A stretch of DNA of 64,000 bases, from NCBI GenBank assembly GCA_030685065.1, contig JAUXQH010000059.1, positions 62,001 through 126,000 of the forward strand, given 5' to 3'. The notes below the pieces were generated by a model. It worked only from the letters and a program-made list of their open reading frames with translations, searched no databases and was not told the DNA's origin. Positions 9,701-27,391 of this stretch are shown one piece after another. The DNA is from Pseudomonadota bacterium (GTDB taxonomy: Bacteria; Myxococcota_A; UBA796; SXON01). The position numbers and the translations under genes are program-made. Numbering within the stretch: position 1 is the stretch's first letter; each line of letters opens with the position of its first letter.

Positions 9701-9923
9701 CGCGGACGTGGGCAACGTCTGGTTCCTCCACCCCGACGTCACCGATTCGATGAAGCTCGCGGCGGACGACGGCAACCCGGCGCTGCGCTGGTCGGTCGGG
9801 GTGGGGCTGCGCCGCGCCACGGTCATCGGCCCGATCCAGGTCGACGTGGGCTTCAATCCCGCCCCCATCGAGGCGCGGGAGGAGAGCGTGGTGCGGCTGC
9901 ACGTGTCGCTGGGGGCGCTGTGA
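6705..9923 (+). CDS. Omp85-family outer membrane assembly protein (BamA/TamA-like) with about seven POTRA domains
   Basis: 1072 aa. A signal peptide ends at ALA before QEP (about residue 50), followed by a short Ala/Pro/Glu linker. Reading the repeated pattern 'strand, helix, helix, GY/GF, strand, strand' I count seven POTRA units between about residues 90 and 700. The last begins VYLRSVILRGHRRTRRSV. The C-terminal ~370 residues form the 16-strand barrel, with the RLGGGASLRGF loop (L6 region) and the terminal GPIQVDVGFNPAPIE region. Known role: inserts beta-barrel proteins in the outer membrane. BamA usually has five POTRAs and TamA three. The tamB neighbour suggests a TamA role, but it could be the cell's BamA. 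ATG 6705 is used; ATG 6691 is out of frame. Confidence 0.88.
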   Translation: MRAPPSQASRANRGVATRKRAAPAWARLLCAAVLAPAVLAPAVWAPAALAQEPAASAQEPAAEPASEERGAVEPLELVPLPEGPVATDSDLPPAVRYTGRIVALRTLVAPGGGLPAESLEPLLRVQQDTRYDPQAVRQDIAVLHRVLDFARVEVDVEDWVAFDADGQPVPAVKVEYRVYPPPRLGQVLFRGARALSRRQLLGVIGREPGDPFFSEDEERVGTDIREAYAAIGYPSATVDVATTTDAAGRVTLALTVVEGPPNRVTEVRVRDGGALSGLRVRWILGQAGLGVGRPWTEDALRRARDALTQAVREKGYYEGRVVVQLDPLAEGIRLVVLVDPRRPWQIVRAGKRLPTKVRIVEALGLEEGARLSRRYGEEASRTLTDGLRKAGHLEARVDVVVTEAEDKVSVRVTGTAGPRHRLGSARFSGDPHYDNRYLTGALKEASPELIARGRITPDAVDDALEVLQEFYRSEGYLSADLERVSFTERPGPEQRGAAVVPVDIEVRVDAGPRTVLAAYTVEGDGVEAGGPNGDALFGDLVGLPLNPAEVEARSRRLVEALNEQGFLGADARASTVVSADGSQADVHIVVTTGPTVYLRSVILRGHRRTRRSVIEREIDLRSGDPLAPSRIAAIRRRLYELDLFSRVSAELVGDEDRVKDLIVEVEERPNLHAEIGGGVATDLGVKLFVRGGHRNLFGLGHRLTLLAQAGVGWVGDGWSLDVLAPEWKAAARYEAPNIPARGERVALDVTFNEQQQEPTYRLERSGGGLGVLLHLGAYGTAELAYRVQFRRLLDVDPGAIVPGDPWLDELGIADVDDLALTLPSAVRAQSGLDLSFVLDLRDDPFNPTRGGVGNLLVNVTDQVLSDLTYLRAEGSWAWWAPIGGFGLQGRLRAGAAWVPGTRSSAVQSTLPLEDRFRLGGGASLRGFALDEVGPANEVAREHIDFNDGLGPIVAYGGRDAPSRWVPTGGDAMALGSLEFRIPFERLGLAKWEGTQLAFFADVGNVWFLHPDVTDSMKLAADDGNPALRWSVGVGLRRATVIGPIQVDVGFNPAPIEAREESVVRLHVSLGAL
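6851..6889 (+). repeat. 21-bp tandem repeat encoding an Ala/Gln/Glu/Pro linker
   Basis: GGCGCAGGAGCCCGCCGC occurs at 6851-6868 and again at 6872-6889. It encodes QEPAASAQEPAA just after the signal-peptide cleavage site of the Omp85 protein. It looks like a replication-slippage duplication in a flexible linker. Confidence 0.6.
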
Positions 9924-11773
9924 GCGAGGAGGCCCCGGGCTCCCCTTCGGAGGGCGGCACCCCGGCGGTGGAGAGGGGGGGCCTGCTGGCGATCGGCCTC
10001 GCCGTCGTGGCGGTGCTCGGCCCGGTCCTCCTGCACCCCGGCACGCGGGTCGTGGGCTCGCCCAGCGTGGACGGCTTCGGAACGCAGTGGTTCTTCTGGT
10101 TCGCCAGCGAGGTCCTCTCGGGCCGGCAGCCCGCGGGGGTGACGGACCTCTTGTTCCATCCGTGGGGCAAGGATCTGTACGCCCACACCGGCGGAAACCT
10201 CGTCGATGCATGGCTCGCGGCGCCGCTCCGCGCGGTCCTCGGGCCGGTGGCGGGGTTCGACGCGTGGGTGGTCGTCGTGCTCCTGACCAACGCGTGGGCG
10301 GGCCTGCGCCTGGCGGCGGCCTTCGGGGCCCCCCGCCGCTGGCGGTGGGCGGCCGGGCTGGCGCTCGTTCTGAACCCCTACGTGCTCGCCGAGATCGATC
10401 TGGGGCGGGTGACCCAGGCCTGGTTGGCGCCAGCGGGGCTGGCGCTCGCGGGCCTGGTGGCGATGCGGTCGGTTCGTGGCGCGGCGTTGGCGGGGCTCGC
10501 GCTCGGGCTGTCCGGGCTCGCCTACTGGTACTACGGCCTCCTCCTCGGCGCGATCGCGGTGCTCCAGGGGGTCTGGGCCCTCGTCGCGGGCCCGGAGCGC
10601 ACCCGCGCCTTCGGGCTCTTCGCGGTCGCGGCCGCGGTGGCGCTCCTCGTCACGCTGCCCTTCGCCGCACCGATGGTCCGCGCGCTCGGCGGGGGAGAAG
10701 TGCCGGGCCTCCTCGCGCTCGACGGCACCGGCCCGCTCGCGCCCCTCGCGCTGAGAACGGTCGAGGGCGACGAGCAGGGGCTCTACGTCATCGCCCCGCT
10801 CCTCGGCGCGGCCGGCTCGCTCCTGGAGGATGGTGGGCTGCGCTTCAGCCGCGGCCTCCCCGCCTACTTCTGGGTCCACCTGCTCGCCGGCCTCCTCGGG
10901 CTCGGCGTGCTCCTGGCCCGCGGGGGCGTGCGCCGCTGGGGCTGGGTCGTCGGGGCGTGGATCGTCGCGGTGCTCGTCGCGAGCGGGCCGGCCATCGTGC
11001 TCGGCGACCACCTCGTCCCGAACCGCCCCTGGATCGCGCTCGTGACGGCGGTCGACGTGCTGCGACGCTGGTGGTGGCCCGGTCGCGCGGTGTTCCTGCT
11101 CCACCTGCTCGTGGCGGGCCTCCTGCCGGTGCTGCTCTCCGCCCTGCCGCGGGTCCTCCGGATCCCGACGGGCGCGGGGATCCTCCTCGTCGCCCTCGCC
11201 CTGCTCCGTCGTGACGCGCTCGCGCCCGTCGCCAGCTGGGACGCGACGGTGCCGCCCGCGCTCCGCTGCCTTGCCGCCGCGCCTCCGGGGGCGGTCATCG
11301 ATCTGCCGCTGCTGGTGGACCAGAAGAACCTCTGGTTCCAGACCGTGCACCACAAGCCGCTGCTCGGCGGGATGTTGCTGAAGAAGACAGCCTTCGCACC
11401 GGCGGAATTCACGCGGCTCCGCGCCGAGGATCCGCTGCTCCAGGCGCTCGAGGCCATCGGCGACCGGCACTACACGCGCGACATGGAGCCGGCGACGCCG
11501 GAGGTCCGCGCCGCGCTCGCCTCGCACGGCTACCGCTACGTGGTGGCGCGGATCGACGCCTTCCGCCGCCCGCGCACCGCCGCCGACGGGGAGGTGGTCT
11601 GGGTGTCCGAGTGGTCGCGGCCAAGGCGGCAGCTCCTGGCGCTGCTGGGCGCGCCCGCGGCGGAGGACGACACCCTCGGGATCTGGATGCTCGACGGCGG
11701 GGCCTTGCCGTGCGGCCCCGACGGCGGCCGAACCGATGGCGCGCACGATGGCGAAGGGGGAGATGGGCGCTAG
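9920..11773 (+). CDS. Polytopic membrane protein, GT-C glycosyltransferase-like, coupled to the Omp85 gene
   Basis: 617 aa. GTG at 9920 overlaps the TGA of the Omp85 gene (GTGA), so translation is probably coupled. About a dozen hydrophobic segments lie in residues 20-420, followed by a soluble tail. The first loop after TM1 (SPSVDGFGTQWFFWF, then FHPWGKDLYAH) and the NPYVLAEI segment resemble bacterial GT-C/YfhO-type proteins, where an acidic residue in that loop binds a polyprenyl-phosphate sugar. The tail contains PPGAVIDLPLLVDQKN followed by HHKPLLGGML, also common in that group. Function is not established. A role in glycosylating an envelope lipid or protein is inference from fold resemblance and position. 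Confidence 0.6.
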   Translation: MSEEAPGSPSEGGTPAVERGGLLAIGLAVVAVLGPVLLHPGTRVVGSPSVDGFGTQWFFWFASEVLSGRQPAGVTDLLFHPWGKDLYAHTGGNLVDAWLAAPLRAVLGPVAGFDAWVVVVLLTNAWAGLRLAAAFGAPRRWRWAAGLALVLNPYVLAEIDLGRVTQAWLAPAGLALAGLVAMRSVRGAALAGLALGLSGLAYWYYGLLLGAIAVLQGVWALVAGPERTRAFGLFAVAAAVALLVTLPFAAPMVRALGGGEVPGLLALDGTGPLAPLALRTVEGDEQGLYVIAPLLGAAGSLLEDGGLRFSRGLPAYFWVHLLAGLLGLGVLLARGGVRRWGWVVGAWIVAVLVASGPAIVLGDHLVPNRPWIALVTAVDVLRRWWWPGRAVFLLHLLVAGLLPVLLSALPRVLRIPTGAGILLVALALLRRDALAPVASWDATVPPALRCLAAAPPGAVIDLPLLVDQKNLWFQTVHHKPLLGGMLLKKTAFAPAEFTRLRAEDPLLQALEAIGDRHYTRDMEPATPEVRAALASHGYRYVVARIDAFRRPRTAADGEVVWVSEWSRPRRQLLALLGAPAAEDDTLGIWMLDGGALPCGPDGGRTDGAHDGEGGDGR

Positions 11774-11794
11774 CTTCAGAGGGAGCGAGGTCCG

Positions 11795-12964
11795 ATGTTT
11801 GGACGACGTTTCCCGCTTCTCCGCCTCTTCGGTTTCCAGGTACGGGCCGATGCCGGGTGGCTCATCATCGCCCTCTTCGTCACCTGGAGCCTCGCGCTCG
11901 GCGCCTTCCCCGCGATCGTCCCCGGCCTCTCGGCGGGGGTGTATTGGGTCATGGGGTTCGTGGGCGCCATGGGGCTCTTCGCCTCGATCCTCCTGCACGA
12001 GGTCTCCCACGCCCTCGTGGCGCGGCGGTACGGGCTCGAGACCCGGTTCATCACCCTCTGGCTCTTCGGCGGGGTGGCGGAGACCGTGTCCGAGCCGCCG
12101 AGCGCCCTCGTCGAGCTTCGGGTGGCGCTCGCGGGGCCCCTGTGCAGCTTCCTGCTGGCCATCGCCGCGATGGCGCTCGGCCTCGCCGTCGACTACGCCG
12201 GCCTCCCGGTCGCGGTCGCCTCCTTGCTGGTCTACCTCGGTTGGATGAACCTCGTCCTGGCGATCTTCAACATGCTTCCCGGGTTTCCGCTCGACGGGGG
12301 GCGCGTGTTGCGGGCCATCCTCTGGCAGGTCCGGGGGGATCTGTACTCGGCCACGCGCGCCGCGTCCCGGGTCGGACAGGGCATCGGGATCTTCCTGATG
12401 GCGGCGGGCGTGCTGGTCGGGCTCGGCGGAAACCTGCTCGGCGCCTTGTGGTGGATCCTCATCGGCTCCTTCCTCCGGCGCGCCGCGGTGAGCTCGATGC
12501 AGCAGCTCGACATCCAGCGCGTGCTCGAGGGCGTGGCGGTGCACCGCGTCATGGATCGCGTGCCGCTCGTCGTGTCGCAGTCGCTCTCGCTCGAGCGCTT
12601 CGTCCAGGACTACGCGTTCGTGCGGGGCCGCATGCGGTTCCCCGTCACCCAGGGGGACCAGCTGGTCGGCTATGTCGACGTGGCGGACGTGCGGGCCATC
12701 CCGGAGGCGGACTGGCCCGTGCGCACGGTCGAGAGCGTGGCGCGGCCCCCCTCGCCGAGCGCGGTCATCGATCCGGACGCGAACGGCGCCGAGGCGCTCC
12801 GGCGCATGCAGGAGGCCGACGCCACCACGCTCCTCGTCGCGAGCGACGGGCGCCTGGAGGGGGTCGTCACGCTCGACGATCTCGTGCGGATCCTCGGGGT
12901 GAAGAGCACGCTCGAGGGCGGCACCCGGCTCGCGGCGCTCCGCGCGCAGGAGCTCCGCCGCTGA
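11795..12964 (+). CDS. Site-2 protease family (M50) intramembrane metalloprotease with CBS domains
   Basis: 389 aa. The zinc-binding motif HEVSH lies at residues 68-72 inside a hydrophobic segment, and the second active-site motif [12 protein letters not shown] lies near residue 157. Together they define an S2P/SpoIVFB-like protease. Six hydrophobic segments cover about residues 15-230. Two CBS domains follow (about 245-310 and 320-375), the second containing [18 protein letters not shown]. Known role of the family: regulated intramembrane proteolysis, often of anti-sigma factors or membrane-held regulators; the CBS pair usually senses adenine nucleotides. No obvious substrate is adjacent. 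A purine-rich Shine-Dalgarno (GGGAGCGAGG) precedes ATG 11795. Confidence 0.88.
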
Positions 12965-12973
12965 GGGGCCCGA

Positions 12974-14461
12974 TCAGCGGTCGCGCGGCTCGGGGCACGC
13001 GTCCACGAGGTCGAACAGCGCGCAGCCGTCGATGGAATCGGAGCGGTACAGCGCGGTCTCGCGGTCGGGAAAGTCGATGCGCCACGAGAGGTCGGCCCCG
13101 CCGGCCGCGTCGGGCCGGAGGAGGGCGAGCGCGGAGCGCTGCGGGGCGTCCTCGTCGACCCACCAGAAGTTCCCGATCGCGAGATCGAGGGCGCCGTCGG
13201 CGCGGCGATCGAGCCCGCCCCACGCGGGAGAGGTCCAGTCGAGGGGGCCGCGCCACGCGGTCTCGATGCGCGCGGTCCCCGCGGCCTCGTCGAGGAGGAG
13301 CACCATCGCGCGGCTGTAGGGGGCGCCCCCCACGGCGGTGCGCCCCAGGCCGTTGTCGTAGACCACGAGGCGGTCGCCGATCCGCTTCACGTCGTGTTGC
13401 CCGAAGAACCACTCGGTGTCCTCCGCGGGGGCCCCGTCGATGCCGAGCAGCGCCAGATCGCCGCCGTGGCCGACGCGCAGATCGACCTCGCGGGTGGCCA
13501 CGTCGATGCGGAGCACCTGGTTCAGGTTTCGCAGGCTCACGTACACCTTCTCGCGGCCCGCCTCCTCCACGTCCCACACCGCGTTCGCGTGGTAGGGCCC
13601 GGTGTCGTAGCGGGTGCCCGGTTCGAGCGCCCCGGCCGCCACGCCGTCGTCCATCGAGCTCCAGCTCCAGAGGACCGCGCCCGTGTCGAGCGCGAGCTCC
13701 TGGATCACGAAGCCCTCCCACGTCGTGTCGGGATCGTCCTCCGTCGGGATGGCCTCCTGCGCGAGCACCCACAGGCTCGCGCCGTCCGCCGCCAGCCCCG
13801 CGTCGTGATGCCAGCTCGACGGGACCTGCCAGTCGCTGGAGAGGGCGTCGGGCGCGGAGAGCAGCACTTCGCCGTCGAGCGTGAGGACCGTGGGCGCCGT
13901 GCTCGCGTCGGCGCCGAAGCCCCCGAAGAGCAGGCGGTCCTCTCCGAGCCAGGTGGCGTCGATGTCTCCGCCGCCTTCCCCCGCGAAGTGCCAGCGCGGC
14001 CGGCCCTCGGCGTCGAGGATCGCGAGGAACTCGTCGCTGAAGTAGTTGCCGCCGGCGTTCTCTGGCGCGAGGAGCCGCGCGAGGTTGACGAGGCGGAAGC
14101 CGACGTCGGCGGCATCCCCGGCGACCGCGACCTCGGCGACGGGGAACGCCTCGGGAAGCGGCGGCGTCTGGAGCTCGATCGTCCCCGATCGAGCATCGCC
14201 GCGCGTCGCGACGCACGCGTAGCTCGTGTCCCCCAGGAGGCCGCGGACGACGAGGGGACCGGGCGCCGCGCGGCCGAGGAGCGCGTGCACGTCGTCTCCG
14301 GCGGCGGTCGCGCAGCGCAGGTCGACCGGGCCGCCCGCGGAGAGGGTGAACACGGCGGCGTGCGGGTCGGTGGGGGAGAGCGCCCCCGCGAGCTCCACGA
14401 CGCTCGGCTCCGCGGAGTCGGGCGTCGCGGGTCGGCACGCGAGAAGGAGGCCGAACACCAT
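12974..14461 (-). CDS. Arylsulfotransferase-like (ASST-type propeller) predicted lipoprotein
   Basis: 495 aa. The N-terminus MVFGLLLAC carries a lipobox (Cys9), though the signal is very short and lacks the usual positive residues. The body shows propeller-like repeats and the histidine-containing blocks WHHDAG, YHANAV and FGQHDVKR, which resemble the ASST/arylsulfotransferase family. Known enzymes of that family move sulfate between phenolic compounds in the periplasm. Whether this protein is catalytic or only a binding propeller cannot be told from sequence. It is single-gene, convergent with the S2P gene (9-base gap) and divergent from the phosphoesterase gene. Confidence 0.6.
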   Translation of the reverse strand: MVFGLLLACRPATPDSAEPSVVELAGALSPTDPHAAVFTLSAGGPVDLRCATAAGDDVHALLGRAAPGPLVVRGLLGDTSYACVATRGDARSGTIELQTPPLPEAFPVAEVAVAGDAADVGFRLVNLARLLAPENAGGNYFSDEFLAILDAEGRPRWHFAGEGGGDIDATWLGEDRLLFGGFGADASTAPTVLTLDGEVLLSAPDALSSDWQVPSSWHHDAGLAADGASLWVLAQEAIPTEDDPDTTWEGFVIQELALDTGAVLWSWSSMDDGVAAGALEPGTRYDTGPYHANAVWDVEEAGREKVYVSLRNLNQVLRIDVATREVDLRVGHGGDLALLGIDGAPAEDTEWFFGQHDVKRIGDRLVVYDNGLGRTAVGGAPYSRAMVLLLDEAAGTARIETAWRGPLDWTSPAWGGLDRRADGALDLAIGNFWWVDEDAPQRSALALLRPDAAGGADLSWRIDFPDRETALYRSDSIDGCALFDLVDACPEPRDR

Positions 14462-15420: not shown

Positions 15421-15473
15421 GGGGGGCGGGACGAAGCGCCCACCTGTCGCGCGAGCGCTCGGAGCGCCGACGG

Positions 15474-15502
15474 TTGACACGAAGCAAGTGTTTACTTACA
15501 AA
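15474..15502 (+). promoter_or_regulatory. Sigma-70-type promoter with overlapping palindrome (candidate TetR operator)
   Basis: TTGACA (15474-15479, perfect -35), a 17-base spacer and TACAAA (15497-15502, 4 of 6 for -10) lie 23 bases before the HlyD start. The palindrome AAGT-GTTT-ACTT (15486-15497) and a second nested one, GTTT-ACTTAC-AAAC (15490-15503), overlap the spacer and the -10 box. This is where a repressor would block RNA polymerase. The TetR gene at the end of the same cassette is the obvious candidate to bind here. The tract is AT-rich within very GC-rich DNA. Confidence 0.6.
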
Positions 15503-15524
15503 CGAGGGGCAGCCTGGAAGCGCG

Positions 15525-16652
15525 ATGTATCGGCCCCTCCCCCGACTCCTCCCCTACGTGCTCGTGCCCCTCGGCATCGCCGCGCTGGTCGCCGCGGTGC
15601 GCCTTCGCCCCGTCGACACGCGCGCGCATCGCGTGGACCGCGGGGATGTCGTGGCCGAAGTGCTCGGCGTCGGCGTGTTGGAGAGCACGCGCGAGGTGCG
15701 CGTCTCGTTCGAGGCCTCCGGCCGCGTGACCTCGCTCGCGGTCGACGAGGGTACGGTCGTCGCCGAGGGGGACGTGCTCGGCACGATCGACGCCTCGGAT
15801 GCGACGCGGGAGCTCGCCGTGGCCGGGGCCGCCGAGGAGGCGGCGGTCGCGGTCGTCGCGCGGGCCCGCGCTGAACTGGAGCGCGCCCGCGTCGCGTCGA
15901 TGCGGGCGGCCGCCGACCGTGGACGCGCCGACACGCTCTTCGCGGCGGGCGTCATCCACGCCGCGGAGCACGAGGCCGCCATCGAGCGAGATGACAGCGC
16001 CGGGGCGGACGTGCGGGCGATGGAGTCCGGGCTGGTCCAGGCCGAGCGGAGCCAGGATGTGGCCGCCCGGACACGCGGCATCCGGAGCGCGCAGGTGGCG
16101 GACGGGCGCCTCGCGAGCCCGCTCTCCGGCCTCGTCGTCGCCCGCGATGTCGAGGCCGGGCAGCTCGTCACTCCGGGCTCCCCGGCGTTCACCATCGTCT
16201 CCACCGAGGCGATGCGCGTGCGCGCCTGGGTGGACGAGACGGCGCTGGGCACCCTGGCGGTTGGCCAGCCGGCCCGGCTGGTGTTCCGGTCCGAGCCCGA
16301 CCGCCCCTTTGCCGGTACCGTCACGCGAATCGGTCGCGAGGTGGACCGGCAGACCCACGAGCTGCTCGTGGACGTGGCAGTGCTCGAGCTGCCGACAAAC
16401 TTCGCCGTCGGGCAGCGCGCCGACGCCTGGATCGAGGTCGGCCGCAGCGCCTCCGTGGCCAGCGTGCCGCGAGGCTGGTGCGATACCCGGTGTGCCGTCC
16501 TGGAGGACGGGCGGGTGGCGTCCCGCGAGGTGACGCTCGGCCTCGCGGGGCGGGATCGGGTCGAGGTGTCGAGCGGGCTCGCGCCGGACGACGTGGTGCT
16601 CGCGCCCGGCGCGACCATCGGAAGGCGCGTGCGGATCACGGAGGAACAATGA
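15525..16652 (+). CDS. HlyD-family periplasmic adaptor (membrane fusion protein) of an ABC efflux system
   Basis: 375 aa. One N-terminal transmembrane segment (about residues 8-27) is followed by the biotinyl-lipoyl half SFEASGRVTSLAVDEGTVV, a helical hairpin rich in Ala/Glu/Arg (about 90-180), and the second half LASPLSGLVVARDVEAGQLV. The beta-barrel domain is VRAWVDETALGTLAVGQPARL. This order is typical of DevB/MacA-type adaptors that couple an inner-membrane ABC transporter to an outer-membrane channel. ATG 15525 follows GGAAG. Its stop overlaps the permease start (ATGA). No TolC-like gene is in the window. The substrate is unknown. Confidence 0.9.
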   Translation: MYRPLPRLLPYVLVPLGIAALVAAVRLRPVDTRAHRVDRGDVVAEVLGVGVLESTREVRVSFEASGRVTSLAVDEGTVVAEGDVLGTIDASDATRELAVAGAAEEAAVAVVARARAELERARVASMRAAADRGRADTLFAAGVIHAAEHEAAIERDDSAGADVRAMESGLVQAERSQDVAARTRGIRSAQVADGRLASPLSGLVVARDVEAGQLVTPGSPAFTIVSTEAMRVRAWVDETALGTLAVGQPARLVFRSEPDRPFAGTVTRIGREVDRQTHELLVDVAVLELPTNFAVGQRADAWIEVGRSASVASVPRGWCDTRCAVLEDGRVASREVTLGLAGRDRVEVSSGLAPDDVVLAPGATIGRRVRITEEQ

Positions 16653-17773
16653 ACCTCGCGTGGAAGGACATCCGCCGCCAGGGGCTCCGGTTCGTCTTCA
16701 CGGGGCTCGGGCTCGGCCTGCTCTTCGCGATCGTGCTCGCGATGGGAGGCATCTACAAGGGCATGGTCGCGGACGCGACGGTGCTCGTGGACGCGGTCGG
16801 CGCTGATCTCTGGGTGGTCCAGCGGGAGACCCGCGGCCCCTTTGCGGAGCGCTCCACCGTCCCCCGCAACCTGGAGGACCGTCTGCGCGTCGTGGAGGGG
16901 GTCGCCTCCGCCGAGAGCTTCACCTACGCCACCATTCAACGCGGCGACGTCGCCCATCCGGTGCGCATGGGGGTGGTGGGCCTGTCCTGGCCGGCCAACC
17001 GAGGACAGCACCTCCCGCTCGTGGGCGGGCGCGCGCTCGGCGCCGCGCACCGCGAGATGATCGTGGACCAGAGCCTCGGGCGTGCGCTCGGTGAGCATGT
17101 GCCGCTGGGAGACGACGTGTACGAGGTCGTGGGCGTCACCAAGGGGTTCGTGTCCTCGGGTGGAGACGCCCTCGTGTTCGTGACCGAGCCCGACGCTGAC
17201 GCGATCCTCGGGTGGACCGCCCCGGAGTCACGGCGGCTCGCGGGCAGTCGGGACGCCGAAGTGCTCCCCAGCGCGGTCGTCGTGAAGCTCCTCCCCGGGT
17301 ACCGCGCCGAGGACGCGCAGGCCCGGATCTCGAGCTGGCCGGAGGTGACGGTGTGGACCCACGAGGAGCAGCGAGGCCTCCTCCTGCACGGCGTGATCGA
17401 CAAGGCACGCAAGCAGATAGGGCTCTTCCGCGCGCTGCTCTCCGTGGTCTCCGCGATCATCGTCGCCCTCATCCTGTACAACATGACGGTCGCCAAGAGC
17501 TACGAGATCGCGCTGCTGAAGCTCCTGGGAGCGCGCACCCGCGTGATCGTGGGGATGATCCTCCAGCAGGCCCTGCTCCTCGGAGCGATCGGCTACGGGA
17601 TGGCCGTCGCCATCGGCGGCCTCGCCTTCGAGCACTTCCCGCGCCGCGTCGTGGTCGGTCCCGAGGAGCTCGGTGGGCTAGCGGCGCTGGTGGTCCTCAT
17701 CAGCGTGCTCGCCAGCGCCGCCGGTATCGTCCGGGCGCTCCGCATCCCTCCCACCCTCGTCCTGGCGGGTTGA
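16649..17773 (+). CDS. ABC transporter permease, MacB/DevC (FtsX-fold) type
   Basis: 374 aa. TM1 near residues 15-38 is followed by a large periplasmic domain (about 45-265), then three more transmembrane segments: SVVSAIIVALILYNMTVA, the LLLGAIGYGMAVAIGG region and the LVVLISVLASAAG region. The cytoplasmic coupling loop AKSYEIALLKLLGARTR is the FtsX/MacB signature. ATG overlaps the stop of the adaptor gene and the ATPase ATG lies 2 bases beyond this stop, so all three products are made together. Known role of the type: mechanotransmission export of substrates from the periplasm rather than transport across the inner membrane. Confidence 0.9.
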   Translation: MNLAWKDIRRQGLRFVFTGLGLGLLFAIVLAMGGIYKGMVADATVLVDAVGADLWVVQRETRGPFAERSTVPRNLEDRLRVVEGVASAESFTYATIQRGDVAHPVRMGVVGLSWPANRGQHLPLVGGRALGAAHREMIVDQSLGRALGEHVPLGDDVYEVVGVTKGFVSSGGDALVFVTEPDADAILGWTAPESRRLAGSRDAEVLPSAVVVKLLPGYRAEDAQARISSWPEVTVWTHEEQRGLLLHGVIDKARKQIGLFRALLSVVSAIIVALILYNMTVAKSYEIALLKLLGARTRVIVGMILQQALLLGAIGYGMAVAIGGLAFEHFPRRVVVGPEELGGLAALVVLISVLASAAGIVRALRIPPTLVLAG

Positions 17774-17775
17774 TC

Positions 17776-18497
<722 letters not shown>

Positions 18498-18501
<4 letters not shown>

Positions 18502-19073
18502 CCGCCCGCCAACCCACCGAGGAGCGCCGCCGCCAGATCGCCGACGCCGCGCTCAAGGTCATCGCCGAGCAGGGCCTCGGTCGGTTCACCACCCAGGCCA
18601 TCGCGGCCGAGGTGGGGATCACGGACGGCAGCTTGTTCCGCCACTTCGCGAGCAAGGAGGAGATCGTGCTCGCGGCGCTCGACCGCGTCGAGGAGCAGCT
18701 GTTCGACGGCTTCCCGCCGGCCGACCCCGATCCCCTCGTCCGCCTGGAGCACTTTTTCCGCGTCCGCGCGGCGCTGGTCGGGGGCAACCCGGTGATCGCT
18801 CGGCTGGCGTTCTCGGAGGAGCTCCCGCACGCCGCGGGCGAGCGCGGGGCGAGGCAGGTGCAGAGCTGGAAGGACCGCTCCCTGGACTTCGTCGTGGCCT
18901 GCGTGGAGGAGGCCGCCGCGCAGGGGCGAATCCCGCCCGGGCTCCCCGCGCGGGAGGTGGGCGTCATGGTACTCGGCACCCTCATCGCGCTGGTCCGCTT
19001 CGGGGAGCTCGCCTCCGGGGCCGCGACGGTAGACCGCGCGTGGTCGCTCGTACAGCGACTGTTCGGGAGGTAG
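18498..19073 (+). CDS. TetR/AcrR-family transcriptional regulator
   Basis: 191 aa. The N-terminal helix-turn-helix is complete: RRRQIADAALKVIAEQGLGRFT, then the AIAAEVGITDGSLFRHFASKEEIV block of TetR repressors (about residues 30-53). The C-terminal ~130 residues are helical and ligand-binding. As the last gene of the efflux cassette it probably represses the promoter at 15474-15502, an autoregulatory arrangement common for drug-efflux operons. The inducer is unknown. Confidence 0.93.
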
Positions 19074-19273: not shown

Positions 19274-20173
19274 ATGATGCGCGCCTACGTCCGTCTCCGC
19301 CCGCCGAACGGCCACGCCGTCGAGCTCGGCCACGGCGACCTCATCGGCCGGCTCTGGTCGGCCGCGCTCTCCATCTCGGACGCGCGGGTCTCCGAGGCAC
19401 ACGCGATGGTGAGCCTTCGCGGCCAGGAATTGTTGTTGCTTCCGCTGCGGGGGCGGTTCGCCGTCGACGGGCAGCGGCAGGCGTCGCTGGTCCTCGCCGC
19501 GGGCCAGAGCATCACGCTGGCCGACGGCCTGGACCTCGTGGTCGAAGAGGTCTCGTTGCCCGCGTCGGTCTTCGCGGTCGAGGGTGACGGGCTCCCCCGC
19601 GTCGTCGTGAGCGGGGTGTGCAGCCTGTTGACCCGCCCGCGGCCCGAGCTCGTTCCTCGCCTCGTCCCCGACGCGCCAGCCCACCTGTGGGGCGACGGCG
19701 AGGGTTGGTGCCTCACGATGAATGGGATCACCCGCGCGCTCGAGGTCGGGGACACCTGGGAGCTCGACGGGCGTCGCTTTCGGGCGGTGGGCCTCTCCCT
19801 GGACAGCGCTGGCCGCACGGTGACCCGGCTCGACGGGGGGGTGGCCCGCCCGCTGCGCATCGTGGCGCAATTCGACACGGTGCACATTCACAGCGACGGT
19901 GGCGGTGCGCTCGCCCTCTCCGGGCTGGCCGCGCGGCTGGTGAGCGAGATCGTCGCCTTCGACGGGCCCGTGTCCTGGGAGGTGCTCGCGAAGGAGCTCT
20001 GGCCCGACGAGGACGATGTCCACCTGCTCCGCCACAAGCTCGACGTGACCCTCTCCCGGCTCAGGTCGCGGCTGCGGGAGGCGCAGGTCCGCCCCGATCT
20101 GGTCCGCTCCGACGGCTTCGGAAAGGTCGAGCTGTTCCTGCTCGACGGCGATCGGGTCGAGGATCGCACGTGA
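19274..20173 (+). CDS. FHA-like domain protein with C-terminal winged-helix DNA-binding domain
   Basis: 299 aa; two ATGs (19274 and 19277) are possible starts. Residues about 5-92 look like an FHA domain: GR at 25-26, then Ser40 and His43 in ARVSEAHAMV, the usual phosphothreonine pocket. The distal Asn of a canonical FHA (in the NGT block) is not evident. A middle beta-rich part (about 135-200) is unassigned. Residues about 210-290 match an OmpR/SARP-type winged helix: VSWEVLAKELWPDED, HKLDVTLSRLRSRLRE, then the DGFGKVELFL wing. The order is reversed compared with mycobacterial EmbR (winged helix first, FHA last). The GTGA overlap with a Ser/Thr kinase gene suggests that the kinase controls this transcription factor; this is inference. 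Confidence 0.7.
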   Translation: MMRAYVRLRPPNGHAVELGHGDLIGRLWSAALSISDARVSEAHAMVSLRGQELLLLPLRGRFAVDGQRQASLVLAAGQSITLADGLDLVVEEVSLPASVFAVEGDGLPRVVVSGVCSLLTRPRPELVPRLVPDAPAHLWGDGEGWCLTMNGITRALEVGDTWELDGRRFRAVGLSLDSAGRTVTRLDGGVARPLRIVAQFDTVHIHSDGGGALALSGLAARLVSEIVAFDGPVSWEVLAKELWPDEDDVHLLRHKLDVTLSRLRSRLREAQVRPDLVRSDGFGKVELFLLDGDRVEDRT

Positions 20174-23055
20174 ACGACCCCCTCGGGGCAGACCAGGACA
20201 GCTCGCCCGCGCCGAGCGATCCCGGAGATGGCCCCGGGCAAACCGGGCGAGCGGCGGTCGAGCCGGACGCCCCGCGCTACGAGCGGCAGGGCCTGATCGG
20301 TCGCGGCGGGATGGGCCGGGTGTACGCCGCCCGCGACGCCCGGCTGCGCCGCCAGGTGGCGCTCAAGGTGGCCGCGACGCCCGAGCTCGCCGATCGCCTC
20401 GCGCGCGAGGCCTGGATCACCGCGCAGCTCGAGCACCCCGGCATCGTCGCGGTGTACGACGCGGGCGAGACGGAGGGGCAGGCGTGGTACACGATGCGCC
20501 TCATCCGCGGCCGGACCCTCCGGGAGCGCCTCGCGGCCTGCCCCGACCTCGGCGCGCGCATCGAGCTCCTGCCCCACCTCCACGCGGCCTGCCAGGCGGT
20601 CGCGTACGCGCACTCCATGGGCATCGTCCACCGCGATCTGAAGCCGTCGAACATCATGGTGGGCGAGTTCGGCGAGACCCAGGTGGCCGACTGGGGCCTG
20701 GCCACCCCGCTCGACGAGGCGCTGCCGGACTGGAAGCGGATCGTCAGCCCGGCGGGCGACGTGTCCGGGACGCCCCGGTACATGAGCCCCGAGCAGGCCC
20801 GCGGGGCGCCCGCGAGCCGCGCCTCGGACGTGTTCGGTCTGGGCGCGGCGCTCTACGAGCTCCTGGCGGGGCACGCGCCCCCAGGCGAGCCGGGCGTGCC
20901 GCCCGACGCGGACGCCCTCCCCGGGCAGGTGCCGAGGGAGCTGGTGGCGATCGCGCGCCGCTGTCTCCGGGCCGATCCGGCGGCGCGGTACCCCACGGCG
21001 GGGGAGCTCGCCGCCGACCTCGGCCGTTGGCTCTCCGGGCAGCGCGTCCACGCGCACGAATATCGACCGACCGAGCTCCTCGCCCGGCTGGTGCGCGCCT
21101 GGCGGATCCCGCTCACGGTGGGCGGCATCGCGCTGCTCGCGCTGGCCGCCGTCGTCGTCGTCGCGGTGGAGCGCACGGCGCGCGAACGCGCCGCCGCCGA
21201 GGGGAACCTCGCGGTCGCGCTCACCCGACAGGCGCTCGCGGCCCTCCTGGAGGAGCGGCTCCCCGAGGCGCACGTGCTGGCCGCGCATGCCCTGCGGTTC
21301 GGCCCCTCGCCCGAGGCGCGGGGGATCCTGGCGGCGACCCGGCGCAACACCGCCGAGCTGGTCTGGCGCGTGCCGCTCCCCCCCGGCTGTCGGCACGGGG
21401 GCGTGCTCGCGCCGGACGCGGAGACCCTCGCCTGCCGCGCGGACGGAAAGCTGGAGATCTGGGGCATCGACCCCCTCGTGCGCCGCGCCGTGCTCGACCT
21501 GTCCGTGGTGGAGGATCCGGTCTGGGTGGGCGAGCGGCTGCTCGTCGCGACGCCGGACGCGCTGCTCTGGATCGAGGAGGGGGTGGTCGTGGGGACGACG
21601 CCGGGCGCCGGATGGTGGCCGTTGGCCTCGGGTGAGGTGGCCTTCGCGACCCGCGGGCCCGCCGGCCGCCGGCTCCTGCCCGACGGCGAGGGCGTGGACT
21701 TCGAGATGTGCTGGGCCAACCGCTCCACGACGCGCGTGGTCGCCGGGGAGCTCGTGGTCGGCTGCGACGACGGGTTCCTGCGCAGCTACGGTCCCGACGG
21801 GGCGCTGCGGCTGGAGCTACCGCTGGGCGAGCGCCCCGCGTGGTCCGCCGTCCGTGAAGCGGCGGGGGGGCTCCTCGTCGGGCGGCTCGACGGCGATGTC
21901 CAGGCGCTCGCGCTCCCCGAGGGCCGCTGGACGCCGCCGTTGCGGGGACTGTCCCGGAGCGTGCTCGCCCTCCAGCCCATCCCCGGCACCCCGGGGGTCC
22001 TCGTCCTCGGCGAGCGGGGAGGCCCGAGGATCTGGAACACCGAAGCCGCAGGCTGGGCGGGCTCGTTGCCGGCGGGGGCCAGTCGCATGTTCCCGGGCAC
22101 ACGGGCGGGGGAGGTGCTGCTCCTCGGCGACACGCTGCAGCTCTGGCGCGTCTCCGCGACGCCCCGGCCCACCGTGCTGTCCTACGGCACGGGAGCCTCC
22201 CAGGTCACCCCGTCTCCCGATGGCGAGTCCCTGGCGGTGGCGCTGGGCGCCGGTGAAATCGTGGAGCGTCGGCTCGCGGACGGGCACGAGCTGCGGCGAT
22301 GGACCTGGGGCGACGGCGTCGCCAAGTGTGTGGCCTACGCGGAGGACGGGCTCCTCGTCGCAGCGGCGATGGGGGCGCCGGGACAGGTGCTCGGTCCGTC
22401 GGAGGAGATCCGGCCGCTCGAGTTGGGGGCCGTCCTCCGACGCGCCGGCCGCCTCGCCGATGGAACGGTGTGGGCGTTCGCCTACACCGACGCCGCGTTC
22501 CTCGTCGCGCCCCGGACCCGCCGCGTCACCACACAGGCAACCGGCCCGGGGCTGTTCGACGGATCGAGCAGCCCCGACGGGGGCACGGCCGCGCTCCTCG
22601 ACACGCGCGGGGGGGTGTGGCTGTTGGAGGGAACGACATGGCGCGAGGCGCGTCGCATGGCGGACGCCGTGGCGGTGGACGTGGGCGAGGGCGGCGCCCC
22701 CCTGGTGGTCGCGCGGCGTCGGGAGGTCTGCATCGAGGAGCGCTGCTACGCCGTCGATGACGACATCATCGATGTCGCGTTCTCCGGCGACCGGGTGGCG
22801 GTCGCGACCCTGAGGGGGGACGTCTCGTTGCTCGACGCGGGGACGGGCGAGCGGCTGGCCCTCCTCCGCGGCCACGCCGCGCGGGTGAGCTCGGTGGAGT
22901 TCGGGCCGGGGGGAGAGTGGCTGGTGAGCGGGAGCTGGGATGGGACCGCCCGCCTGTGGGACCTCGGCGGGCTCGACGAGCCCGCCGAGGCGCTGATCAC
23001 CCGCAGCGAACGTGCGTGGGGTCTCGGGCTCGACGAGGCGATGCGGAGCCGGTAG
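20170..23055 (+). CDS. Membrane Ser/Thr protein kinase with C-terminal WD40-like beta-propeller
   Basis: 961 aa from GTG 20170, overlapping the FHA gene stop. Kinase domain about residues 37-290: glycine loop GRGGMGRV (44-51), Lys66 in VALK, catalytic HRDLKPSN (154-161), metal-binding DWG (174-176, a known DFG variant), and SPEQARG. A transmembrane segment lies at about 313-333. A helical linker follows, then a long beta-propeller (about 400-950) ending in a clear WD40 blade, VSGSWDGTARLWDL. Known pattern: PknB-type Hanks kinases with an extracytoplasmic sensor. Here the propeller is predicted to face the periplasm and would sense a ligand or protein. The partner FHA/winged-helix protein is the likely phosphorylation target. 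Confidence 0.88.
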   Translation: MNDPLGADQDSSPAPSDPGDGPGQTGRAAVEPDAPRYERQGLIGRGGMGRVYAARDARLRRQVALKVAATPELADRLAREAWITAQLEHPGIVAVYDAGETEGQAWYTMRLIRGRTLRERLAACPDLGARIELLPHLHAACQAVAYAHSMGIVHRDLKPSNIMVGEFGETQVADWGLATPLDEALPDWKRIVSPAGDVSGTPRYMSPEQARGAPASRASDVFGLGAALYELLAGHAPPGEPGVPPDADALPGQVPRELVAIARRCLRADPAARYPTAGELAADLGRWLSGQRVHAHEYRPTELLARLVRAWRIPLTVGGIALLALAAVVVVAVERTARERAAAEGNLAVALTRQALAALLEERLPEAHVLAAHALRFGPSPEARGILAATRRNTAELVWRVPLPPGCRHGGVLAPDAETLACRADGKLEIWGIDPLVRRAVLDLSVVEDPVWVGERLLVATPDALLWIEEGVVVGTTPGAGWWPLASGEVAFATRGPAGRRLLPDGEGVDFEMCWANRSTTRVVAGELVVGCDDGFLRSYGPDGALRLELPLGERPAWSAVREAAGGLLVGRLDGDVQALALPEGRWTPPLRGLSRSVLALQPIPGTPGVLVLGERGGPRIWNTEAAGWAGSLPAGASRMFPGTRAGEVLLLGDTLQLWRVSATPRPTVLSYGTGASQVTPSPDGESLAVALGAGEIVERRLADGHELRRWTWGDGVAKCVAYAEDGLLVAAAMGAPGQVLGPSEEIRPLELGAVLRRAGRLADGTVWAFAYTDAAFLVAPRTRRVTTQATGPGLFDGSSSPDGGTAALLDTRGGVWLLEGTTWREARRMADAVAVDVGEGGAPLVVARRREVCIEERCYAVDDDIIDVAFSGDRVAVATLRGDVSLLDAGTGERLALLRGHAARVSSVEFGPGGEWLVSGSWDGTARLWDLGGLDEPAEALITRSERAWGLGLDEAMRSR

Positions 23056-23069
23056 CGACCGCGCCTCGC

Positions 23070-24470
23070 TCACATCTCGGTGGAGGCCTCCGCCTCCGCG
23101 TTGGTCGCCGCCCCCTCGGACCGCCGCCCCACGCCCAGCACGAGCCGCCCGAGCGCGTAGCCGGCGACGCCCGCGACACCCGAAGCCGCGAGGATCGCGA
23201 GCTTCGCCGTCTCGAGGGCGGGCCCGGGGGGGAAGGCCAGCTGCGCGACGAACAACGCCATCGTGAAGCCGATCCCGGCGACGCCTCCGACCACGGTCAC
23301 GTCGGCCCAGCGCACCCCGCGCGGGAGGGTTGCGGCCCCGAGCGCGGTGGCGGCGCGCGCCGCGCCGTACACGCCGACCGCCTTGCCGATCACCAGCCCC
23401 GCCACGATCCCCACGAACACGCGCCACCCGTCGCCCGCGAGGCTCAGGCTCCCGAGCGAGACGCCCGCGTTCGCGAAGGCGAACAGCGGCATGACGAACC
23501 ACGCCACCCAGCCGTGGAGCGCGTGCTCGAGGCGCTCGACGGGCGAGACGGCCTCGCGGGTGGCGCGCGCCACCGCGTCGAGGTGCTCGTGGATGTGGGT
23601 GATGCCCGCGCCGGCCGCGTCGCGTACGCCGCGCGCGGCGGCCTCGGCGGTGTCGGCGAAGCGATCCGCGCCGAGCCAGGCGCGCACTGGCGTGAGGAGG
23701 CCGACGAGGACCCCGGCGATGGTCGGGTGTACCCCGGAGGCGTAGGTCGCCCCCCAGGCGACCAGGGCCAGCGGGACGTAGGCGGCGATCGTCCGCACGC
23801 CGAAGAGCTGCAACACCAGGATCCCGGCGAGCCCGGCTCCGGCCGCACCGAGCGCGAGGAGGTCGACGCCGCCCGAGTAGAAGATCGCGATGACGAGGAT
23901 GGCGCCGAGGTCGTCGATGACCGCGAGCGCGAGGAGGAGGACGCGCAGCGCGGGGGGAACCCGATCGCCGAGGAGCGCCAGGACGCCTACGGCAAAGGCG
24001 ATGTCCGTCGCCATCGGCACGCCCCAGCCGACCGACGTGGCGCGCCCCGCGTTCAGGGCCGCGTAGATCGCGGCGGGGACGAGCATCCCGCCCACCGCCG
24101 CCGCGAGCGGGAGCGCCGCCCGGCGCAGGTCGGAGAGCTCGCCGGCGTGCATCTCCCGGCGGATCTCGAGCCCGACGACGAAGAAGAACACCGTCATCAA
24201 GCCGTCGTTGACCCACCAGCGGAGGTCCCGCTCGAAGCTGACCGGGCCGAGGGTCAGCCCGAGCGGGGTGTTCCACAGGGCCTCGTAGAGGGCGGCCGCG
24301 GGCGTGTTCGCCCACACGAGGGCCGCTGCCGCCGCGACGAGGAGGACGATGCCGCTCGCGGCTTCTACCGCGAGGAAGCGATCCACCGGCGCCGACAGCG
24401 CTCTTGCGAGACGACGGGCCGGAAACCAGGAGCGAGGCGGGGCAGGGAGATGGTCATGGGGAGGACGCAC
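23070..24470 (-). CDS. nhaA: Na+/H+ antiporter NhaA
   Basis: 466 aa, eleven or twelve hydrophobic segments. Signature blocks include WWVNDGLMTVFFFVVGLEIRRE, PMATDIAFAVGVLALLG and AVIDDLGAI. Asp186-Asp187 correspond to the essential Asp163-Asp164 pair of the E. coli protein and Asp156 to its Asp133. Longer than E. coli NhaA (388 aa) because of an extra loop (about residues 265-315) and a charged tail. Known role: exchanges Na+ or Li+ for protons to keep pH and sodium balance. The start is GTG 24470 with no clear ribosome site, so a shorter start is possible. Single gene, convergent with the kinase gene. Confidence 0.95.
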   Translation of the reverse strand: MRPPHDHLPAPPRSWFPARRLARALSAPVDRFLAVEAASGIVLLVAAAAALVWANTPAAALYEALWNTPLGLTLGPVSFERDLRWWVNDGLMTVFFFVVGLEIRREMHAGELSDLRRAALPLAAAVGGMLVPAAIYAALNAGRATSVGWGVPMATDIAFAVGVLALLGDRVPPALRVLLLALAVIDDLGAILVIAIFYSGGVDLLALGAAGAGLAGILVLQLFGVRTIAAYVPLALVAWGATYASGVHPTIAGVLVGLLTPVRAWLGADRFADTAEAAARGVRDAAGAGITHIHEHLDAVARATREAVSPVERLEHALHGWVAWFVMPLFAFANAGVSLGSLSLAGDGWRVFVGIVAGLVIGKAVGVYGAARAATALGAATLPRGVRWADVTVVGGVAGIGFTMALFVAQLAFPPGPALETAKLAILAASGVAGVAGYALGRLVLGVGRRSEGAATNAEAEASTEM

Positions 24471-24613: not shown

Positions 24614-27229
24614 TCACCAGCTCGTCCCCGCGGGCCCGCCCCGCGCGCCCATGTCGTTGCGGGTGCCGTCCGCGTCGTTGTAGGCAGAGGAGGGATCGCC
24701 CGCGTCGATCGAGAAGGAGGTGGCGCGCAGCACGAACGTGTCGTTGTACGGGTTGTTCTCGCACGCGACGGACGCGAAGTTGCTGTTCGTGGAGATCGCG
24801 CCGGTGCCGGCCGAGAGCGAGCCGCTGTAGGTGTCGCCCGAGCTGTTGTACGTGTTGTTGTACAGCTGGGAGCCGCCGCCCCCGGCGCCGTACACGAGCG
24901 CGACGGAGGTGCTCGCCTCGACGATGGAGTTCATCAGGTTGAACGTGGTCGAGGCGCCAATGTAGGCCTGCGAGCCGCGCGCGGTGCCGGAGACCGACGA
25001 CGTGTTTCCGAAGAACGCGGCGTTGGTGAACGACGCGGTGCCCGAGGACTCGGTGTACACGCCGCCGCCGTCCGTCTCCGCGTCGTTGCAGTAGATCGCC
25101 GCGTTCGTGAAGGACGCCCACGCGCCGGAGAGGTTGATACCCCCGCCGTCCACCGCGTCGTTCTCGCCGATGTAGCCCTCGTCGAAGCTGAAGTTGGAGT
25201 CGGCCTCGGCGAAGATGCCGCCGCCCTGGTCGGCGAAGTTGCCCGAGATCCAGGAGTTCTCGAAGTGGCTGCTCGAGTTCCGCAGGCAGACGCCGCCGCC
25301 GAAGCTGTACATCCACACCTGGGTGTAGGTGCCCGTCGCGACCTGCTCGAACCCGGGCAGCGTGTTGTCGCGCACGTCCACGTCGTAGAAGGTGGGGTCG
25401 TCGCCGTTCACGTAGATGCCGCCGCCGCAGTACTCGTAGGTCGTGACCGCACAGGTCGTCTGGCCGCTGTGCGACGCCGAGGAGTCCGCGCAGGTGGTGC
25501 TCGCGGTGGACGCGGTGTAGGCGCCCGTGCCGCCCGTGATGGTGAACCCGTGGATCGTCGGCGCCGCGTTGCTCCCGGAGTCGACGGTGAGCGCCGCGCC
25601 GCACGCGGTGGGGTTGGCGGTGTTGCAGGTCGCCAGGCTGGGATCGATCGTGGTGATGTCGTAGCCTTCGACGCCCCACACATCGATGCTCTTGCCCCCG
25701 AGATCGATGGCCTCGCGGTAGGTGCCGCGAAAGGCGACGACGCACTGGTTCGCGGAGTCGATGGCGTCCTGAAGGCTGTCGTACGGGCTCGAGAGGCTGC
25801 CCGAACCCGATGCGGAGCCGCTGACCGGGTCGCACACGACGGGCTCGGTGCGATCGCCGTCGTTGCAGTCCCAGGCGTTGTCGACATAGCCGGCGGGCAC
25901 GGTGCACTCGACCTCGGTGACCGAGGGGTCGCCGAAGCCGTCCTCATCCACGTCCACGTACCAGGTCTCGCCGTCGACGGGCCCGTTGTCGACGATGCCG
26001 TCGCAGTCGTTGTCGATGCTGTCGCAGATCTCGTCCGCGCCGGGGTGGGTGATCGCGGAGGAGTCGAGGCAGTCCGTGTCGTCCGCCACGTAGCCGCCCG
26101 GCGCGGTGCACCGCACGTCGCTGCGCGAGGCGTTGCCGTAGGCGTCGCCGTCGGCGTCGAGGTACCAGGTGGCCGCGTCCGCGGCGTCGTCCTCGTCGAT
26201 CGTGCCGTCGCAGTCGTCGTCGTAGGAGTTGCAGTACTCGGTGGCGCCCGGGTTGGTGAGGGCGCGCGTGTCGTCGCAGTCGTTCGAGGAGGCCACGTAG
26301 CCGGCGGGCGCGGTGCAGAGCCGGGTGGACGTCGAGGCGTCGCCGTAGGTGTCCGCGTCCGTGTCGGCGTACCAGGTGCTCATGTCGGAGGCGTCTTCGT
26401 CGACCGAGCCGTCGCAATCATCGTCGATCGTGTTGCAGACCTCGATGGCGTCGGGGTTGACCGCGATCGCGTCGTCGTCACAGTCTTCGGAGTTGTTCGT
26501 GTACCCGGTGGGGACCGCGCAGGCCTCCTGGGTCAGCGCGGAGTTGCCGAAGCGATCCCCGTCGAAGTCGGCGTAGTACGTGGTGGTCACGCCCTCGTCG
26601 ACCGAGCCGTCGCAGTTGTTGTCGATCTCGTCGCACACCTCGGCGTTGCCCGGGTAGGCGTTGCTCGTGGTGTCGTCGCAGTCCGTGGAGTCGGGGACGG
26701 AGCCCAGGGGCCGGTCACAGGAGAGGGTGGGCGCTTCGAGGTCGCCGTAGGTGTCGCCGTCGGCATCGGCGTACCAGGTCTGGTTCACGCCCTCATCGAC
26801 CGTGCCGTCACAGTTGTTGTCGAGCCCGTCGCACACCTCGGTGCCGCCGGGGAACGCGGTGCGCTCGCTGTCGTCGCAGTCGTTTCCGTTCTGGACGTAG
26901 CCGGAGGGCGCGTCGCACGAGATGGCCGCGACGGCGGGGTCGCCGAAGCCGTCCCCGTCGAAGTCCTGGTAGTAGGTGGCCTCGACGTCCTCGTCGACCT
27001 CGCTGTCGCAGTCGTCGTCGATGCCGTTGCACAGCTCGGTCGCGGAGGGGCTCACGTCGCGGTTGCTGTCGTCGCAGTCACCCTCGGAGACGAGGAAGCC
27101 GTCCCCGTCCTCGTCGACCGGCACGGAGGCGCTGTCGTCGACGGGCTTGACCGTGCCATCGGGCGAGGTGCCACCGTCGCAGCCGGCGAGCAGGAGGACG
27201 AGGGAGACGGGGAGCAGGAACTTGGCCAT
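24614..27229 (-). CDS. MopE-like 'putative metal-binding' repeat lipoprotein with C-terminal beta-helix
   Basis: 871 aa from ATG 27229, 6 bases after an AAGGA site; the longer track start lacks support. Signal peptide with lipobox LLAGC (Cys17). Residues 39-470 hold six full repeats and one short one, period 66-69 residues. Each has DCDD, a P/E/C-N/D-G-I/L-D-N/D-D/N-CDG core, then an acidic DADGD loop and a Cys. This is the MopE-type Asp/Cys pattern, which may bind calcium or other metals. Residues about 480-871 are Gly/Asn/Ser-rich with short strand periodicity, as in right-handed parallel beta-helix domains. Probably surface-exposed; ligand and role unknown. Such proteins are abundant in Myxococcota-like genomes. 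Confidence 0.82.
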   Translation of the reverse strand: MAKFLLPVSLVLLLAGCDGGTSPDGTVKPVDDSASVPVDEDGDGFLVSEGDCDDSNRDVSPSATELCNGIDDDCDSEVDEDVEATYYQDFDGDGFGDPAVAAISCDAPSGYVQNGNDCDDSERTAFPGGTEVCDGLDNNCDGTVDEGVNQTWYADADGDTYGDLEAPTLSCDRPLGSVPDSTDCDDTTSNAYPGNAEVCDEIDNNCDGSVDEGVTTTYYADFDGDRFGNSALTQEACAVPTGYTNNSEDCDDDAIAVNPDAIEVCNTIDDDCDGSVDEDASDMSTWYADTDADTYGDASTSTRLCTAPAGYVASSNDCDDTRALTNPGATEYCNSYDDDCDGTIDEDDAADAATWYLDADGDAYGNASRSDVRCTAPGGYVADDTDCLDSSAITHPGADEICDSIDNDCDGIVDNGPVDGETWYVDVDEDGFGDPSVTEVECTVPAGYVDNAWDCNDGDRTEPVVCDPVSGSASGSGSLSSPYDSLQDAIDSANQCVVAFRGTYREAIDLGGKSIDVWGVEGYDITTIDPSLATCNTANPTACGAALTVDSGSNAAPTIHGFTITGGTGAYTASTASTTCADSSASHSGQTTCAVTTYEYCGGGIYVNGDDPTFYDVDVRDNTLPGFEQVATGTYTQVWMYSFGGGVCLRNSSSHFENSWISGNFADQGGGIFAEADSNFSFDEGYIGENDAVDGGGINLSGAWASFTNAAIYCNDAETDGGGVYTESSGTASFTNAAFFGNTSSVSGTARGSQAYIGASTTFNLMNSIVEASTSVALVYGAGGGGSQLYNNTYNSSGDTYSGSLSAGTGAISTNSNFASVACENNPYNDTFVLRATSFSIDAGDPSSAYNDADGTRNDMGARGGPAGTSW
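25820..27115 (-). repeat. Six and a half ~198-bp coding repeats of the MopE-like protein
   Basis: Units begin at residues 51, 117, 183, 249, 317, 386 and 454 (distances 66, 66, 66, 68, 69, 68 codons). They are diverged at the DNA level but keep the DCDD, CDG and DGD codons, giving a visible periodic pattern (GTCGTCGCAGTC on the plus strand). The last unit is truncated before the beta-helix part. Confidence 0.85.
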
Positions 27230-27391
27230 GCAGGTCCTTCGCGGCCGAAGGGCCGGGCGAATGGTGGCACGAAGGCGGCGCGAGACGAGGGGCCCGTCAC
27301 GGAGAGGGGGCCCATCAGGGCGCATTGAACCACAGGGTTGTGCGTCCCGCAAACGGTTTTGTAGTGCTGCTCGCAGACGCGGGCCCGATGT
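27230..27391. other. Intergenic region upstream of the MopE-like gene
   Basis: 162 bases. On the minus strand TTGCGG, 17 bases, then TTCAAT could be a weak promoter for the lipoprotein gene, but matches are poor. No terminator with a T-run is visible for the upstream ppx gene. Confidence 0.3.

Follow-up and report, generated by a model that had tools for sequence, protein, structure and literature searches.

Does a membrane Ser/Thr kinase of a myxobacterium-like organism control, in a single step, the transcriptional regulator encoded beside it? The question is raised by two overlapping genes at positions 19274-23055 of a 64,000-nucleotide stretch of contig JAUXQH010000059.1 (hereafter the window), which belongs to a genome of 8.09 Mb in 175 contigs. 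An earlier note on this DNA, made from the letters alone, had reported a 299-aa and a 961-aa (amino acid) gene overlapping by GTGA, and both the coordinates and the overlap are exact: the four letters are common to both reading frames, with the GTG start of the kinase gene overlapping the stop codon of the regulator gene. Taken together, our results argue that the pair probably performs one-step transmembrane signalling by Ser/Thr phosphorylation, in which the kinase would mark Thr184 of the regulator, the regulator's own FHA domain would capture the mark, and the winged helix would thereby be switched.

Domain architecture of the regulator and the kinase

The features of the pair are given below in window coordinates, with the evidence for each in brackets.

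19274..20173, + strand: regulator of 299 aa with ATG start, comprising FHA domain, probable FHA-like domain, linker and winged helix (reading frame and translation, AlphaFold2 model, Foldseek)
19274..19558, + strand: N-terminal FHA domain, residues 1-95 (Foldseek matches to FhaA, EmbR and GarA; conservation; profile alignment to FhaA)
19562..19798, + strand: second beta domain, residues ~97-175, probably a degenerate FHA-like fold (Foldseek with the fragment model)
19817..19843, + strand: predicted disordered linker, residues 182-190 (predicted local distance difference test, pLDDT, <50 for this segment in both the full and the fragment model)
19823..19825, + strand: codon of Thr184, the proposed phosphoacceptor (Thr in 54/55 non-redundant homologues)
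19853..20167, + strand: OmpR/PhoB-type winged helix, residues 194-298 (model topology; Foldseek matches to KdpE, EmbR and AfsR; AdeR profile match)
20170..23055, + strand: 961-aa Ser/Thr kinase with GTG start, predicted transmembrane helix and propeller (translation; Pfam PF00069 4.7e-35 and WD40 3.9e-12)
20278..21081, + strand: Hanks-type kinase domain, residues ~37-304, with DWG for DFG (Pfam, NCBIfam, motifs)
21112..21168, + strand: predicted transmembrane helix, residues ~315-333 (mean hydropathy 2.76 over 19 residues)
21190..23052, + strand: C-terminal propeller region, presumably periplasmic (Pfam; propeller matches in nine other partner kinases)

The profile search that the earlier note had recommended for the regulator succeeded only in part. 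Pfam detected FHA at residues 24-82 (16.5 bits) and Trans_reg_C at residues 233-277 (15.4 bits), both under the cut-offs; among 42 regulator homologues, FHA was matched in 39 (E up to 0.1) and Trans_reg_C in only 6. A single-sequence search of the PDB with the regulator returned nothing significant. Since both domains lie below the Pfam/NCBIfam cut-offs, structure prediction was needed, and the full regulator was modelled with AlphaFold2 using 42 homologues (mean pLDDT 87), together with a second model restricted to residues 96-299 (mean pLDDT 88).

In the full model, residues 1-95 form an FHA-type beta sandwich, matched by Foldseek to FhaA (3poa, E 2.1e-6, prob 1.00, TM-score 0.80 by target length), EmbR (2ff4, E 5.5e-6) and also GarA. 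GR 25-26, Ser40 and His43 hardly ever change among the homologues, in agreement with the earlier proposal of an FHA-like N-terminus built around them. The canonical phosphothreonine-binding motifs of FHA domains are GR, SxxH and NG (PMC1262709). The third of these is absent here, the loop being two residues shorter than that of FhaA in the profile alignment, and an invariant Arg59 lies near the place of the missing NG loop. The profile matches of the family include the atypical FHA domain of MU2.

The fragment 96-299 was also matched to FHA folds, namely those of Ki67 (prob 0.99) and MDC1 (0.84-0.96), and to the PrgH-type FHA-like domain of type III secretion systems (4g2s, prob 0.92). Because the E values of these matches are weak (0.03-0.3) and the listing gives them without the residues covered, a second, degenerate FHA-like domain at ~97-175 is likely on this model, not proven. 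This probable domain had been overlooked by the earlier reader, as had the linker threonine described below.

The C-terminal part of the model consists of strands followed by three helices and a hairpin. Foldseek matched the fragment to OmpR-type winged helices (prob 0.98-1.00, E 0.005-0.13), including VicR, AdeR and, at prob 1.00, KdpE (4kny), EmbR (2ff4) and AfsR (8hvr); furthermore, the regulator-family profile matches the DNA-binding domain of AdeR over positions 190-283 (E 0.0068). The OmpR/SARP-like winged helix read earlier from the sequence has an OmpR-type fold by model topology, Foldseek and the AdeR profile match, and the predicted structure, which the note had proposed as a check, contains the FHA sandwich and the winged helix alike. 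Pfam scans of the regulator and its 42 homologues found neither a BTAD nor a receiver domain. In the absence of a receiver domain the protein is not a response regulator, and with no BTAD and a C-terminal winged helix it is outside the EmbR/SARP group. The predicted order is thus FHA, likely FHA-like, disordered linker and winged helix; the reversal relative to EmbR and the lack of a BTAD had both been read correctly. In two close orthologues (L015:6618-6654 and L016:6623-6627), a frameshift at 9-10 consecutive G interrupts the regulator where the winged helix begins with its first strands; this could be a sequencing error or a slippery tract switching the DNA-binding domain on and off.

The kinase carries a complete set of motifs (GRGGMGRVY at 44, ALK at 64-66, HRDLKPSN at 154 and DWG at 174), so that the Hanks-type elements (glycine loop, VAIK Lys, HRD and DFG Asp) are all present, with DWG replacing DFG. 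This replacement was observed in 66/70 neighbour kinases, versus 4/39 unpaired kinases of the same genome. Together with the predicted helix at ~315-333, a single clear WD40 repeat (residues 894-931, Pfam) upholds the earlier description of a 961-aa kinase with a transmembrane helix and a WD40-type C-terminus. Nearly all partner kinases have one predicted helix soon after the kinase domain and, where the contig allows, ~600-700 residues past it; WD40 or propeller matches were found in 9/9 partner kinases scanned, from different branches. Given a cytoplasmic kinase domain and one helix, this topology would place the propeller outside the inner membrane.

Pairing and co-inheritance across genomes

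A GTDB-wide scan for the regulator yielded 45 loci, and the records of its nearest homologues are mostly labelled Myxococcota or 'Deltaproteobacteria'. When 284 sampled genomes of the phylum were searched by profile, 57 gave matches to the regulator, between one and eight per genome. A homologous pair (L023) is also encoded by Paraliomyxa miuraensis, a relative that can be cultured. A kinase gene lies close by at 72 of the 77 distinct regulator loci, located downstream on the same strand in 50 cases, upstream on the same strand in 11, divergent in 5, convergent in 4 and separated by a gap in 2; two of the five loci lacking a close kinase are at contig ends. The pairing survives rearrangement, since the kinase gene can be placed downstream, upstream or divergently. 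In the window's genome, which encodes only 69 kinases in 8.09 Mb, the four full-length regulator paralogues are all paired (4/4).

A maximum-likelihood tree was built from 70 neighbour kinases and 39 unpaired kinases of the window's genome. In this tree, 63 neighbour kinases form one clade (support 100/98) containing no unpaired kinase, and the clade stayed pure in a quick FastTree run with 63 unpaired kinases of that genome in all. Within the clade, regulator and kinase distances are correlated (r = 0.83; best of 2000 permutations 0.20), and the correlation is 0.58 when only regulator pairs below 55% identity are used. As several paralogous pairs occur per genome, it still shows, despite shared descent, that the partners travel together. 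The co-occurrence in relatives that the earlier note had asked about is accordingly observed, and it involves a single co-inherited kinase clade. Three convergent neighbours (L021, L025 and L029) and L042 fall outside this clade and were set aside as probably not cognate.

Three GTDB records carry a myxobacterial-type pair under titles that look wrong: L010 and L039, titled Klebsiella pneumoniae, and L038, titled Rhodobacterales. Additionally, the genome of the window encodes a sister regulator, P0003 (L092:8358-9287, contig C110), whose FHA domain has a canonical NGT motif and whose divergent C-terminus is winged-helix-like. Most of this protein can be aligned with the regulator-family profile (hhalign E 3.8e-7, prob 93), and its gene lies directly before that of a 1238-aa kinase (9291-13004) with AAA/NB-ARC and TPR domains and no propeller. 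This suggests that the class is wider and that its regulators are also paired with other kinase types. Further FHA proteins, in 339- and 322-aa frames at C59:178078-178983 and C67:13151-13342 of the same genome, are located at most ~1.5 kb from Ser/Thr kinase genes and are possibly more members of this class.

Thr184 and the proposed mechanism

Residues 182-190 are the sole segment of at least three residues with pLDDT <50 in the full model. Within this segment, position 184 is Thr in 54/55 homologues (<70% identity), Ala in one (L052) and never Ser; its column entropy is 0.13 bits, versus 2.3-3.6 bits for columns 181-183 and 185-192. In L052, a Thr one residue earlier can be aligned to position 184, and no kinase lies nearby. 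The regulator has a fold that reads phosphothreonine, and its gene adjoins that of a Ser/Thr kinase; for a Thr that hardly varies within a disordered linker of such a protein, the simplest explanation is a phosphorylation site. Judging from conservation and the model, Thr184 looks like the phosphorylation switch of the regulator and is the candidate site.

In the proposed mechanism, the propeller outside the inner membrane would sense a ligand or a partner, and its signal would activate the cytoplasmic Hanks kinase. The activated kinase would then phosphorylate its co-encoded regulator at Thr184 of the flexible linker, and the regulator's own FHA domain would capture phospho-Thr184, either in cis or in a dimer. 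This capture may lock or release the adjacent winged helix, altering DNA binding at its target genes in one direction or the other. Extended to relatives, the same scheme would describe a Ser/Thr-kinase 'two-component' family of Myxococcota with up to eight regulators per genome, running from propeller kinase to linker Thr, non-canonical FHA domain and winged helix; we put forward this generalisation tentatively, as falling somewhat short of an even chance.

The FHA domain might bind the kinase and not the linker. Under such EmbR-like docking, its ligand would be an autophosphorylated Thr of the kinase, phosphorylation of the regulator would occur elsewhere or be irrelevant, and Thr184 would be structural. 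There is precedent in that the phosphorylation of EmbR by PknH requires the FHA domain of EmbR (PMC4601284), and possible ligands are common among the partner kinases, of which 40/58 have an activation-loop Thr ahead of the GT(P) motif and 40/63 a Ser or Thr at a juxtamembrane position. The other 18/58 partner kinases have no activation-loop Thr, which rules this residue out as a universal FHA ligand. Moreover, the activation segment varies and aligns with gaps, and the only Thr conserved in it is that of GT(P), whereas Thr184 is near-invariant in a disordered segment. The earlier note had named no particular threonine as the FHA ligand. Because of the 18 kinases without the residue, the comparative sequence data point to Thr184 of the regulator over the activation-loop Thr as the ligand, and docking of the EmbR kind appears unlikely. 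The FHA domain and the probable FHA-like domain could also form a phospho-independent module for dimerisation or docking, with phospho-Thr184 acting on the winged helix by charge or order. The missing NG, the probably degenerate FHA-like second domain and the MU2 match would all suit this explanation, but Arg26, Ser40 and His43 are kept family-wide, unexpectedly for a pocket that had lost phosphate binding, and we consider it improbable. That the regulator and an unrelated kinase are mere neighbours, sharing an operon with no direct functional link, would accommodate the few homologues that have no kinase next to them; it is very hard to reconcile with the several gene orders, the single kinase clade and the correlated distances, and we give it hardly any weight.

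Capture of phospho-Thr184 by the regulator's own FHA domain is thus the reading we prefer, and several observations weigh against it. The pocket is non-canonical without NG, and the family shows no conserved residue at +3 from Thr184, a position that FHA domains often select. Part of the family was gathered with a search pattern, VSEAHAMV, that includes the FHA motif and so inflates the invariance of residues 39-46, not that of Thr184, which lies outside every pattern used to collect the family; the later whole-genome profile search was independent of VSEAHAMV. The regulators L034, L052 and L110 have no kinase close by, the neighbour kinases L021, L025, L029 and L042 derive from unrelated kinase lineages, and part of the mirror-tree signal is shared ancestry.

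Genomic setting and relation to known systems

Just upstream of the pair, at window positions 15431-19073, genes of a MacB/FtsX-type ABC exporter are followed by a TetR regulator. Downstream, an NhaA-type Na+/H+ antiporter (23070-24470, - strand, Pfam E 3.1e-137) is convergent with the kinase gene, and a 912-aa protein (24614-27352, - strand) contains repeated D/C-rich motifs (NDCDDS...CNGIDDDCDG), which we take to resemble MopE-type metal-binding repeats. A look at the sequences flanking the closest orthologues did not find the TetR regulator, the exporter, the antiporter or the repeat protein; as these neighbours are not kept there, the targets of the regulator cannot be read from synteny. 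An alignment of the 230-bp upstream regions of the orthologues, made in search of a shared operator, revealed no conserved block.

Among described systems, PknH–EmbR of Mycobacterium tuberculosis is similar in that a membrane Ser/Thr kinase controls a regulator that combines an FHA domain with an OmpR-type winged helix, and the EmbR structure matches both parts of our regulator, with the values given above. EmbR is ordered winged helix, BTAD, FHA (PMC4601284), whereas here the FHA domain comes first and the winged helix last, there is no BTAD, the linker Thr is conserved and the kinase carries a WD40-type propeller. In Streptomyces, the membrane-associated Ser/Thr kinase AfsK, with nine C-terminal PQQ repeats, phosphorylates AfsR, which has an OmpR-like winged helix (PMC1262709). 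The combination of a kinase with C-terminal propeller-type repeats and a winged-helix regulator (Foldseek AfsR 8hvr) is shared with our pair, and AfsK, overlooked in the earlier note, is the closer kinase analogue. Unlike the present regulator, AfsR is a SARP with BTAD, NB-ARC and TPR domains and no FHA; the kinase itself is not an AfsK by NCBIfam NF053615 (74.6 bits, cut-off 1300), its C-terminal match being of WD40 type.

The FHA proteins GarA, OdhI and DgcB bind their own phosphothreonine; as in our regulator, a single polypeptide contains both the FHA domain and a disordered segment that bears a conserved Thr (PMC6733907). They carry this Thr in an N-terminal tail, and their output is inhibition of enzymes or a diguanylate cyclase, whereas our regulator carries it between its FHA-like domain and its DNA-binding domain and lacks NG. 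In the case of OmpR-family two-component systems, a membrane sensor kinase and its cognate winged-helix regulator are likewise encoded side by side, with several paralogous pairs per genome; in our pair, a Ser/Thr kinase replaces the histidine kinase and there is no receiver domain. Within the open-licence literature, we found no paper describing this myxobacterial kinase–regulator pair.

Myxobacteria have some of the largest known bacterial sets of Ser/Thr kinases, and to our knowledge few substrates of these kinases have been reported. For each kinase of the co-inherited pairs, the partner regulator can now be named as a candidate substrate, with one residue as the candidate site. Kinase specificity, and whether Ser/Thr pathways can be insulated and one-to-one like two-component systems, thereby become testable by one point mutation.

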